Below are positions 29,713-33,630 of a stretch of 64,000 nt of DNA, piece by piece (position 1 is the stretch's first letter; each line of letters starts with the position of its first letter). Position numbers and translations under genes: made by a program. Source of the stretch: Hartmannibacter diazotrophicus. Its GTDB lineage: Bacteria > Pseudomonadota > Alphaproteobacteria > Rhizobiales > Pleomorphomonadaceae. Under the pieces are notes generated by a model. The model saw nothing but the letters and a program-made list of their open reading frames with translations, did not search any database and was not told the origin of the DNA. The stretch lies in NCBI RefSeq assembly GCF_900231165.1, contig NZ_LT960614.1:4279501-4343500 (forward strand), in the 5' to 3' direction.

Positions 29713-30651
29713 TTATGCGTCCTTCGGTGCCGTCAGCAAACCATAGGTGTCCGGCTCGCGGTGAAGCGCGAAATTGAAGATATTGGCCTTGATCTCGCGG
29801 CACCGGTCGAGGTTGATGGGCGCGGTCACGAGTTCATCGCCGCGTGTCGCCGCCAGCGCCACAATCTCGCCAGTCGGCGCGACGATGCAGCTTCCGCCGA
29901 TGAGCTCGCAGCCCTCCTCGAACCCGGCCTTGGCGCTGCCGATGACATAGGTGCCGTTCTGGTAGGCGCCGGCCTGAAGGCTGAGGTGATTGTGAAAGTC
30001 CTGCAGGTGGTCGTGCTCCGGCGCCGGCGGATAGTGCTGCGGCGTGTTGTAGCCGACGGCGACGAGTTCGGCGCCCTGAAGGCCCAGCATGCGAAAAGCC
30101 TCCGGCCAGCGCCGGTCGTTGCAGATGAGCGTGCCGTAGCGTCCGCCATCCACATCGGCAACGGGAAAGCCGAGATTGCCGCGCGTGAAATAGCGCTTTT
30201 CCAGATGCTGGAACGGCCGTTCGGGCTCGTGCTCGCGATGGCCCGGCAAATGAATCTTGCGGTATTTGAGCGCGATCTTCCCTTCGCGGTCGACGAGGAT
30301 CGCGGTGTTGTAGCGCACCGCCCTGCCCTCTTCCTCGGCCAGTTCCGCATAGCCCAGATGGAAGCCGATTCCCGCCGCCTTCGCCGCCTCGAACAGCGGC
30401 GCGACGTCGGCGTTGGGCATTGCCCTCTCGTAAAAGACGTCGAGATCGGCGTCGTTGCCAAAGAACCAGCGCGGAAAGAAGGTCGTGAGCGCCAGCTCGG
30501 GAAAGACGACGAAGCTCACCCCGCGCGCCTTCGCCTCATCCAGCAATGCCAGCATGCGCCCGACGACCGAAGAGCGCGGCTCGTCACAGGCGATGGGCCC
30601 GAGCTGGGCGCTGGCGGCAATGAACTTGCGATCCGTACCTGTGTTGCTCAT
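29713..30651 (-). CDS. N-carbamoyl-D-amino acid hydrolase (nitrilase superfamily)
   Basis: The 312-residue amidohydrolase hydrolyses N-carbamoyl-D-amino acids to the amino acid, CO2 and ammonia. The nitrilase triad is complete: Glu52 in FPELALTTFFP, Lys132 in KYRKIHLPG and Cys177 in ICNDRRWPE. These sit exactly five residues later than E47, K127 and C172 of characterised D-carbamoylases, and LPGHRE and PFQHLEKRYF also match that family. It is the last gene of a coupled trio: its ATG overlaps the stop of dpaL (ATGA). Relaxed specificity for other ureido acids is possible. Confidence 0.88.
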   Translation of the reverse strand: MSNTGTDRKFIAASAQLGPIACDEPRSSVVGRMLALLDEAKARGVSFVVFPELALTTFFPRWFFGNDADLDVFYERAMPNADVAPLFEAAKAAGIGFHLGYAELAEEEGRAVRYNTAILVDREGKIALKYRKIHLPGHREHEPERPFQHLEKRYFTRGNLGFPVADVDGGRYGTLICNDRRWPEAFRMLGLQGAELVAVGYNTPQHYPPAPEHDHLQDFHNHLSLQAGAYQNGTYVIGSAKAGFEEGCELIGGSCIVAPTGEIVALAATRGDELVTAPINLDRCREIKANIFNFALHREPDTYGLLTAPKDA

Positions 30652-31886
30652 TGCCGTTTCTCCCAGGCGGTGGCCGCGGCGCGCACCTCGTCGCCCGTGC
30701 GCCCGGCAAGGCGTGCATAGACCGCCGGGTCGGTATCACCTTCCGTGCCGAAGACAAGGACGCGCGACCTCGGTCCAAGCTCCAGCCGGGCCGCGGCCTC
30801 GGTGTCTTCCATCAGGGCTGCAAGCGCAGCGATGCCGGCTACGGCGGATTCCCCGGCGACCACCGGTTTGTCGCCGCAGGCGCCTTCCGCCAGGACCTTC
30901 ATCGCATCGATCGCGGCCCGGTCCGGCAACCGCACGACCACGTCGGCGCCCGTTTTCAGGATGTCGTAGGCAAGCTCGGAAACCTCGCCGCAGGCTAGCC
31001 CGGCCATGAGGGTGTCGAGGTCCCCGCCGACGGTAACCGGATGCCCGGCGGCGATGGTCTCGTACCAGCAGGCCGCGGCCTCTGGATCGGCCAGGATCAC
31101 CTTGGGGCGGTGGGGGGCCGTCCGGCGCCAGACGTGGGCGGCGACAGCCGCCGCCATGCCGCCGACGCCCGTCTGCAGGATCAGATGGGTCGGCAGGTCG
31201 TCCATCTGGGCAAGCGCCTCGAAGGCCATCATCTCGTAGCCCTGCATGACATTCGCCGGAACGTCGCGATAACCGGGATAGGAGGTATCGGAGACAACGA
31301 ACCAGCCCTCGCGCGTCGCGGTCTCCTGGGCCTCGCGCACACTGTCGTCATAGTTGCCGGCGGAGCGCACGACGCGGGCTCCGAAGGCCTCAATGGCGGC
31401 CTTGCGCCCCTCGCTGACATCCTTGTGGATGAAGATGACGCAGCGGCAGCCGAAGAGCTTCGCGCCCCAGGCAACGGATCGGCCGTGATTGCCGTCTGTC
31501 GCGCAGGTCACCGTCAGGGTGTCTGCGATCTCGGAAAAGCGCCCCTCGAAAAGGTCCGCCATCTCCGGCGTTTGCCCCGTCTCGTCCGCAATCCGCTTCA
31601 TCAGCAGCCGCATGACGGCATAGGCTCCGCCAAGCGCCTTGAAGCTGCCGAGCCCGAAGCGGCCGCTCTCGTCCTTGTAGGCGATGGATCCGACGCCGAG
31701 GGCATGCGCCAGCTTCGGCATGAAGACAAGCGGTGTCGGCGCATAGCCGGGCCATGACGTGATCGCCGAGCGCGCCGCCTGGAAGGTGGCATCGCTCAGG
31801 ATCGCCTCCATCGCGGGCGTATAGTCCCTCCCGGCCTGCCCATTGAAGACAATGGCCGCGCCGCTGGTCTCGATCGATGGTGTCAT
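30648..31886 (-). CDS. dpaL: Diaminopropionate ammonia-lyase
   Basis: This 412-residue PLP enzyme splits 2,3-diaminopropionate to pyruvate and two ammonia. It resembles E. coli YgeX throughout: the PLP lysine in KDESGRFGLGSFKALGGAYA (about residue 82), TCATDGNHGRSVAWGA, YDDSVREAQE, PANVMQGYEMMA, LQTGVGGMAAAVAAHVW, GGDLDTLMAGLACGE and VFGTEGDTDP. I took the ATG at 31886, which overlaps the deaminase stop (ATGA); the longer frame above it lies inside the deaminase gene. A threonine dehydratase role is less likely given these motifs. E. coli ygeX also sits near hydantoinase-type genes. Confidence 0.88.
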   Translation of the reverse strand: MTPSIETSGAAIVFNGQAGRDYTPAMEAILSDATFQAARSAITSWPGYAPTPLVFMPKLAHALGVGSIAYKDESGRFGLGSFKALGGAYAVMRLLMKRIADETGQTPEMADLFEGRFSEIADTLTVTCATDGNHGRSVAWGAKLFGCRCVIFIHKDVSEGRKAAIEAFGARVVRSAGNYDDSVREAQETATREGWFVVSDTSYPGYRDVPANVMQGYEMMAFEALAQMDDLPTHLILQTGVGGMAAAVAAHVWRRTAPHRPKVILADPEAAACWYETIAAGHPVTVGGDLDTLMAGLACGEVSELAYDILKTGADVVVRLPDRAAIDAMKVLAEGACGDKPVVAGESAVAGIAALAALMEDTEAAARLELGPRSRVLVFGTEGDTDPAVYARLAGRTGDEVRAAATAWEKRQ

Positions 31887-32374
31887 GCGCGCGATGCCCA
31901 GAAGGTCAGGTGCATCTCGGCGGCCTCGTCCTCGAGCATCGGCCCGACGACCTCGACCGTCCGTTGGCCAGTCGCGAGCACCTCCCGGCAGGGCATGTCC
32001 AGCGTCGGGTTTTCGGGATGGTTGCCGGTGATCGTCTTCAGCCGTGCCTCCGAGAGCCCGTAGACGATGCGCCCGATCCCGGCCCAATAGGCAGCGCCCG
32101 CGCACATGGCGCAGGGCTCGGCCGAGGAATAGAGCGTCGCACCGGCGAGTTCCTCGGGACGATAGGCCTTCGAGGCGCGTGTGGCGATGACCCGCTCCGC
32201 ATGGCCGGTCATGTCATGGTCCGGAAGGTAGGCGTTGCCCTGTTCCAGGAGAATGGTGCCGTCAGCGCCGACGACGATCGCGCCGAAGGGGTGGCTCCCC
32301 TCCTCGGCGGCTTTGGCGGCAATGTCGAAGGTCCGGCGCAGAAAGACGGTGTGATCGAGATCGGGAAGAGACAC
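31883..32374 (-). CDS. CMP/dCMP-type (guanine/cytosine-like) deaminase
   Basis: This zinc deaminase of the CDA fold has the HAE motif in MTGHAERVIATRAS and the PCxxC motif in SSAEPCAMCAGAAYWAGI, so the zinc site is complete. It resembles guanine deaminase/TadA-like nucleoside deaminases but the substrate is not clear. A GTG at 32374 gives a family-like start (MSLPDLDHTVFLRRTFDIA, 163 residues); an ATG at 32446 would add 24 unlike residues. Neither has a good ribosome-binding site. It is the first gene of the coupled trio with dpaL and the carbamoylase, and it probably acts in the same catabolic route. Confidence 0.75.
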   Translation of the reverse strand: MSLPDLDHTVFLRRTFDIAAKAAEEGSHPFGAIVVGADGTILLEQGNAYLPDHDMTGHAERVIATRASKAYRPEELAGATLYSSAEPCAMCAGAAYWAGIGRIVYGLSEARLKTITGNHPENPTLDMPCREVLATGQRTVEVVGPMLEDEAAEMHLTFWASRA

Positions 32375-32539
32375 GAAGCGGTCCGGCAAAAAGGAGAAAG
32401 GAAAGACAGCCGGCTCCAGAGATCGGGAGCCAGTCAGGCACAGCATAGTGCATTGCAGCGAAGCTTGGGAACAGGTCGCCGGATCAATCCGGTGCAGAAA
32501 TCATCAGCCGGCGCAGGAAATGATGGGGCGCGTCGCCGA

Positions 32540-33106
32540 TCAGGTCATGGAGCCGAAAGCAGCCACGACCCGTTCATAGATCCCGCGGCGGTGAAGCGGA
32601 CAGATCAGCGGCATGCCGGCAAGCGGCCGCCAGCCCCATTCGAGAAATTCCGCCGGCTCGTCCGTGTGCTCGGCAAGCACCGTGATCTCGCGCTCGTCGC
32701 CCATGAAGCGGAAGGCAGCCCAGCGCTGACGCTGACCGCGAAACGGATAAAGCTTGTGGACGGATGCCCCCCGCGCCGGAAAATCGTAGGTCCACCAGTC
32801 GTCGGTAACGGCGAGGAAGTCCGCCGAGACGACGCCGGTCTCCTCGTGAAGCTCGCGCCGCGCAGCCTCGACGATGTCCTCGCCCGCGTCGATCCCGCCC
32901 TGCGGCATCGCCCAGTCGAGCCCAGGAGCGAAGACTTCCGGATCCGGCCAGCCGAAGAGGTTCGGAAAGGCCCGTCCAGCGAAGACGAGACCGGCCGCAT
33001 TGAAGAGGCAGATGCCGACATTCGGCCGGTAAGGCAGATCGGCCGAAAGCGGCTCGCGCTCGGCCGGGTCGGGCGGTGTCTCGGCCGCCGGCAGCCGGAC
33101 ACTCAC
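32540..33106 (-). CDS. Nudix hydrolase, RppH-like paralog 1
   Basis: The 188-residue protein is an RppH/Ap4A-type Nudix hydrolase. The Nudix box is intact ([20 protein letters not shown], then TGVV). The start of the domain, [13 protein letters not shown], mirrors that of the neighbouring paralog. It starts with GTG overlapping that gene's stop (GTGA). Compared with true RppH it has an N-terminal extension of about 25 residues and a diverged segment ([12 protein letters not shown]) before the box. It may have a different nucleotide substrate. Confidence 0.82.
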
Positions 33107-33630
33107 GCCGGAACGGCCAGATGCTGGAAAGCCGTCACCACCTGCTCGTAGACCGGGCGCTTGAAGGGAACGATCAGGCCCGGCAGAGCGTCGATCCGCT
33201 CCCAGCGCCAGTCGCGGAATTCCGGCTTGTGCGCGCCGCCGGCCGGGTTGTGGATGTCAATCTCGCTTTCCTTGCCCTTGAAGCGGAAGGCGAACCACTT
33301 CTGCGTCTGCCCGCGGTATCGGCCTCTCCAGGCTTTTCCGCTCTCCATGGGCAGGTCGTAGGCGAACCAGTCCGGTGCTTCGGCGATCAGCTCGACGCTG
33401 CGGACATTCGTTTCCTCATAGAGCTCCCGAACCGCCGCATCGAACGGCGCCTCGCCCGGATCGATGCCGCCCTGCGGCATCTGCCAGGAATAGGCCGGCG
33501 CTTCCTTGTTCGCCTTGGCGGCCTTTGCCGCGCCCTCGCCCCGGCGCTGTCCGATCCAGACCTTGCCGTCCTTGTTGAGCAGCAGGATGCCGACACAGGG
33601 ACGATACGGAAGCTCATTGAGGAACGCCAT
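33103..33630 (-). CDS. rppH: RNA pyrophosphohydrolase (RppH/IalA)
   Basis: The 175-residue Nudix enzyme removes pyrophosphate from 5'-triphosphate RNA to start mRNA decay, and also cleaves dinucleoside polyphosphates. It has [13 protein letters not shown], the [11 protein letters not shown] lead-in and an intact Nudix box ([20 protein letters not shown], then TNVR). KWFAFRFKG follows as in RppH. It lies 19 bp after the divergent polysaccharide deacetylase gene, as in other Rhizobiales, and is coupled to a second Nudix gene. Confidence 0.9.

Follow-up and report, generated by a model that had tools for sequence, protein, structure and literature searches.

What compound would be consumed by a deaminase, a diaminopropionate ammonia-lyase (DpaL) and an N-carbamoyl-D-amino-acid hydrolase (D-carbamoylase) whose genes overlap in the genome of the soil bacterium Hartmannibacter diazotrophicus E19T (G000)? 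We analyzed a 64-kb stretch of this genome, referred to here as the window, for which a preliminary description had proposed that the three enzymes degrade a ureido amino acid such as albizziine.

Genes of the locus and their predicted products

All three ORFs were confirmed, arranged head to tail on the minus strand; they encode a CDA-fold, nucleobase-type deaminase (31883..32446 as the longest ORF), a PLP-dependent lyase of the DpaL/YgeX family (30648..31886; 412 aa) and a D-carbamoylase (29713..30651; 312 aa). These coordinates, and the two ATGA overlaps of 4 bases each, were as previously claimed: the deaminase stop overlaps the DpaL start at 31883..31886, and the DpaL stop overlaps the carbamoylase start at 30648..30651 (both on the minus strand). 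The true deaminase start is probably GTG 32374 rather than ATG 32446, because homologues begin near residue 25, the predicted model has low pLDDT for about residues 1–25, and a terminator-like hairpin (32410..32433, minus strand) lies upstream of the GTG, although this hairpin is weak, being a consensus match only (1 found vs 2.0 expected in shuffles). The surroundings of the trio showed no promoter consensus. Two NUDIX/RppH-like tandem ORFs just upstream (33630..33103 and 33106..32540, minus strand, 4-base overlap) look like a duplicated pair. The sole Rfam match in the window at the gathering threshold was an ffh sRNA (RF01793; 47256–47307, plus strand; 66 bits), and no tRNA was found within the 64 kb.

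The window genome contains a single DpaL. Its product scored above the cut-offs of NF006058 (490.6 bits; cut-off 276) and TIGR01747 (305 bits; cut-off 274) and matched the PDB entry 4d9g (E 1e-71). Residues K83, D131 and D200 aligned with K77, D120 and D189 of E. coli YgeX, the lysine that binds PLP and both catalytic aspartates, and were conserved in 26/26 sequences. The window enzyme has the fold family, the catalytic lysine and both aspartates in common with E. coli YgeX and Salmonella DpaL (4d9g, 5ygr), but it does not reach the cut-off of TIGR03528, a stricter equivalog model for YgeX (332 bits; cut-off 532), and it belongs to a carbamoylase-linked branch.

A different role for this gene has been proposed in the genome paper of strain E19T, which shows ACC deaminase activity yet carries neither acdS nor dcyD; ygeX, the window DpaL, and tdcB were named as candidates (PMC6754898). 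The proposal that ygeX is the source of this activity gains some room from the seven other PALP genes scanned in the window genome, which encode EutB, cysteine synthases, threonine ammonia-lyase, tryptophan synthase and an unassigned dehydratase-like protein, and 0/7 of which matched an ACC-deaminase model. However, the DpaL gene is bound in an operon with the D-carbamoylase, its product keeps the lysine and both aspartates of a true DpaL, and no ACC deaminase chain appeared among its 57 PDB matches, which leaves the proposal very improbable. Given the operon context and the DpaL residues, diaminopropionate chemistry is likelier than ACC to be the main role of the enzyme, while an ACC side activity is conceivable.

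The carbamoylase was 62% identical to the Agrobacterium D-carbamoylase 1FO6 (phmmer E 3e-128), and the Glu52-Lys132-Cys177 triad noted in the preliminary description aligned with it exactly. The triad, together with H134, N178, R180 and R181, was kept in 33/33 aligned sequences save for one His, which is Asp in one sequence; the triad, the His and the Arg-Arg were also kept, apart from one His, by all examined DpaL-linked carbamoylases. The window enzyme therefore belongs to the same family as the Agrobacterium hydantoinase/D-carbamoylase system, with all catalytic and binding residues kept, whereas 1FO6 groups with carbamoylases for which no DpaL neighbour was seen in the members examined and the window enzyme is paired with a diaminopropionate lyase. 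D-carbamoylase homologues without DpaL also occur, in other contexts.

The deaminase matched PF00383 (E 4e-19) and carries the Zn motifs HAE (82–84) and PCxxC (111–115). Both by sequence and by predicted fold, the closest solved structure was Msd/Msmeg3575 (5xkq, 8wlw; ~36% identity, Z about 23), a free-base deaminase of Mycobacterium smegmatis crystallised with ammeline and 5-azacytosine, whose gene neighbourhood differs from that of the window deaminase. Assignment as TadA was rejected (67.1 bits vs the NF008113 cut-off of 150).

Linkage of the pair and position of the deaminase

We surveyed 397 genomes of the same order, with a carbamoylase regarded as linked when it lay ≤4 kb from a DpaL homologue. 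The results showed linkage in 43/55 cases at ≥51% DpaL identity, 5/39 at 46–50% and 1/43 below 46%; in two further genomes (G011, G012) the carbamoylase lies at the edge of the retrieved locus and comes in addition to the 43/55, and a few other DpaL genes sit at contig ends. The divergence of DpaL and carbamoylase ran in parallel (r = 0.61, 28 pairs; 0/2000 permutations as high), and the DpaL tree and the carbamoylase tree both recovered the group holding the window genes. These results bear out the earlier view that the lyase and the carbamoylase form a real functional pair.

The deaminase fared differently. Among the 397 order genomes, it adjoined DpaL in only two, the window genome and G002, with the same order and the identical two ATGA junctions, and it stood beside DpaL in 0/28 further DpaL loci from a class-level search. 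The trio is rare and the DpaL/D-carbamoylase pair is common. The preliminary description, which had treated the three genes as one set, is thus borne out in that the set recurs in a second genome, beyond chance, with the deaminase in the same operon; but two genomes are barely more than one, and it is the pair that is widespread. In the deaminase tree, the window protein grouped with genus g6 of the host family (98/97) and the G002 protein with those of G005, G223 and G317 (95/89), which suggests two separate joinings to the pair. A single ancestral trio with later losses is possible, because a one-gene proxy for the species tree gave a similar split.

Elsewhere, relatives of the deaminase occur without DpaL in a separate unit with an importer and a LysR regulator, accompanied, depending on lineage, by FAD oxidoreductase, CocE/NonD hydrolase, ureidoglycolate-lyase-like, creatininase or amidohydrolase genes. 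This putative N-heterocycle catabolic unit (L163–L170, L078; ABC importer, deaminase, LysR and others, with varying content) recurs in Hyphomicrobiales. In G002, the DpaL pair lies inside the importer/LysR unit, between the deaminase and LysR, while the binding protein of the unit is missing from the window genome. Within the host family, a deaminase homologue was present in 13/16 genomes with the linked pair vs 0/4 without it (Fisher p 0.007, kinship ignored), which hints at a functional tie; no such enrichment was seen by eye outside the host family.

The shared operon in two genera, this co-occurrence and the arrangement in G002 could be explained if the deaminase performed an obligatory first step, deaminating an imino- or amino-substituted ring whose opening would then supply DpaL and the carbamoylase with their ureido acid. 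We consider this rather doubtful in view of the rarity of the deaminase beside DpaL and of the company it keeps elsewhere. Judged by its gene neighbourhoods, the deaminase is part of an N-heterocycle catabolic unit distinct from the pair, and its part in the trio is only proposed; its probable substrate is a free N-heterocycle, and its association with the pair is probably secondary.

The pair and reductive uric-acid degradation

Reductive uric-acid degradation has been described in E. coli and C. difficile (Li et al. 2025, PMC12507026; commentary PMC12990295). At its end, 5-ureidomethylhydantoin is converted to 2,3-diureidopropionate, albizziin, diaminopropionate and finally pyruvate; the 2-ureido group is removed by the carbamoyltransferase YgeW in E. 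coli and by the D-aminoacylase UacY in C. difficile, and the hydrolase YgeY converts albizziin to diaminopropionate (PMC12507026, PMC12990295). The 2025 work did not settle the order in which the two ureido groups are lost or the configuration (D or L) of the chiral centre (PMC12990295). This pathway accounts for the linkage of E. coli ygeX to hydantoinase-type genes, to which the preliminary description had drawn attention (PMC12507026, PMC12990295), and its albizziin intermediate, together with the linkage of the pair, agrees with the earlier choice of a ureido-diaminopropionate as the right kind of substrate. The window pair would have in common with it the removal of ureido groups from 2,3-diureidopropionate followed by PLP-dependent DpaL/YgeX cleavage of diaminopropionate to pyruvate, but with a nitrilase-family D-carbamoylase in the place of YgeW or UacY. 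The paper on the reductive pathway makes no mention of a carbamoylase or nitrilase (PMC12507026), and our literature search found no paper joining the phrase N-carbamoyl-D-amino acid with diaminopropionate.

Relatives most often carried a DpaL-M20 hydrolase-carbamoylase operon accompanied by either an RpiR regulator or a TRAP importer, and DpaL-M20-carbamoylase operons were found in many genera, including the betaproteobacterium Cupriavidus, where the operon is on a plasmid. In Rhizobium daejeonense, a hydantoinase, an ABC importer and RpiR face DpaL-M20-carbamoylase (L084 3506–13322, plasmid NZ_CP048425.1); this cluster is compact, self-contained and suited to biochemical reconstitution. In Albimonas, the pair is accompanied by a TRAP importer and by genes of the hydantoinase A/B type (hydantoinase B and a partner gene).

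Homologues of YgfK, XdhD and SsnA, the upper half of the reductive pathway, share the cluster of the pair in some relatives of the window organism. In genus g6, RpiR adjoins DpaL-M20-carbamoylase-YgfK-XdhD-SsnA, with XdhD at 883 bits (cut-off 830), YgfK aligning with no more than the N-terminal portion of the E. coli model and SsnA below its cut-off; one genome of the genus (G010) is without YgfK and without DpaL. In G277, xanthine/urate permease-YgfK-SsnA-YgfM-XdhD lies near carbamoylase-M20-DpaL, and both YgfK (910 bits; cut-off 835) and SsnA (484 bits; cut-off 444) exceeded their cut-offs. YgfK, XdhD, SsnA, M20 and DpaL are thus together in one cluster in genus g6 and in G277, and neither YgeW nor UacY was seen in these clusters. 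Because YgeW and UacY were not seen in the alphaproteobacterial clusters and the carbamoylase family is specific for the alpha-ureido group and the D form, we assign the 2-ureido step to the D-carbamoylase, which probably does the work of YgeW/UacY in the urate clusters of these relatives. In another family, the same urate cluster was seen in three genomes in which DpaL or the carbamoylase is absent or survives only as fragments. Such fragments in the urate clusters of G291 and G276, which hold no intact gene there (L074 5379–5486; L073 9481–9621), suggest recent decay.

The window genome differs from the E. coli and C. difficile pathway in being without YgfK, and the window operon in having a deaminase and no M20 hydrolase. 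With the g6 protein as query, a search of the window genome for YgfK found nothing at E ≤ 1e-10, and within the host family YgfK was found only in genus g6; this query was used because the family-model search returned mostly glutamate-synthase-like proteins matching the C-terminal half. No M20 (YgeY-type) or hydantoinase gene was found in the window operon, and no importer, XdhD or SsnA beside it. The dihydropyrimidinase of the window genome and its nearest M20 (45% identical) lie together elsewhere (G000:C1:1592210–1594878) and look like ordinary pyrimidine degradation. Since YgfK is absent and the dihydropyrimidinase and M20 lie apart and are of the pyrimidine type, the window operon is best read not as a uric-acid cluster but as a stand-alone lower module for ureido-diaminopropionates, or for hydantoins opened elsewhere.

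Candidate substrates and order of steps

Enzymes of the D-carbamoylase family hydrolyse D-amino acid derivatives at the alpha (C2) ureido group, whereas albizziin bears its ureido group on C3, and the albizziine of legumes is the L form. The carbamoylase would therefore more naturally yield D-albizziin from 2,3-diureidopropionate than consume it. This bears on the earlier proposal that albizziine is degraded directly, with the carbamoylase taking the 3-ureido group to give diaminopropionate and the trio serving a legume ureido amino acid. The proposal named the right pair of enzymes, and albizziin is indeed a reported intermediate that a hydrolase turns into diaminopropionate. However, the carbamoylase closely resembles an enzyme specific for alpha-N-carbamoyl-D substrates and keeps all of its binding residues, the plant compound is an L, beta-ureido acid, and the related operons have a separate M20 hydrolase that fits the 3-ureido bond. 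Direct albizziine degradation is thus improbable; the compound class stands, whereas the direction would be reversed, with the carbamoylase making albizziin or using 2-ureido-3-aminopropionate, and the configuration does not match that in legumes.

Enzymes of the D-carbamoylase family are used industrially on many N-carbamoyl-D-amino acids, and some pairs adjoin other genes of D-amino-acid or hydantoin metabolism: an amidase and a hydantoin racemase in G249, and a D-serine dehydratase-like gene in others. A broad D-amino-acid route could be proposed from this, in which the carbamoylase frees various D-amino acids and the lyase acts on several beta-substituted ones, with no dedicated ureido-diaminopropionate substrate. 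The tight pairing with DpaL and the co-divergence of the two enzymes argue against it, as do the recurring M20, hydantoinase and YgfK-XdhD-SsnA partners, which point to diaminopropionate chemistry; we regard the broad route as unlikely.

The reading that we favour, with a little more confidence than doubt, is a two-step catabolic module in which the D-carbamoylase acts on a D-ureido-diaminopropionate and DpaL forms pyruvate; its substrates, stereochemistry and direction of flow, like the role of the deaminase, are what we infer from homology and gene context. A 5-substituted hydantoin, for example 5-ureidomethylhydantoin, would be opened by a hydantoinase or dihydropyrimidinase to the ureido acid. 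The D-carbamoylase would then take the 2-ureido group off D-2,3-diureidopropionate or D-2-ureido-3-aminopropionate, releasing CO2 and NH3 and leaving D-albizziin or D-diaminopropionate. A 3-ureido group, if present, would be removed by an M20 hydrolase; many relatives have its gene within the operon, and in the window genome a pyrimidine-type M20 from elsewhere may take this role. Finally, DpaL would eliminate two ammonia from diaminopropionate to give pyruvate, a step compatible with a D product, as the E. coli DpaL relative accepts both D- and L-diaminopropionate. In relatives with YgfK-XdhD-SsnA, the module would act as the lower half of the reductive uric-acid pathway, the D-carbamoylase replacing YgeW or UacY. 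In the window genome, where the upper half is missing, ureido acids or hydantoins that are imported or otherwise derived would be expected to serve as a nitrogen source; this substrate is a prediction because the genome has no YgfK and the operon no M20.

Taken together, the D-carbamoylase may have been recruited independently for the 2-ureido step of reductive uric-acid catabolism, as a third enzyme besides YgeW and UacY. We put this forward tentatively, at somewhat less than even confidence, along with what would follow from it: a D-diureidopropionate intermediate, removal of the 2-ureido group first, a D configuration for bacterial albizziin, and, for the stand-alone copies that accompany importers and hydantoinases in alpha- and betaproteobacteria of soil, scavenging of ureidomethylhydantoin-type compounds outside the anaerobic gut. 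Such a D-carbamoylase variant looks like one not described in PMC12507026. The pair also bears on the published proposal that ygeX underlies the ACC deaminase activity of E19T (PMC6754898). A D- and alpha-specific family replacing YgeW/UacY in urate clusters would be independent genomic evidence for a 2-ureido-first, D-configured route, and the D-carbamoylase offers a simple, purifiable enzyme for testing the ureido order and the configuration. The reach of the lower half of the pathway would thereby widen to include many proteobacteria associated with soil and plants in which the upper half is missing.
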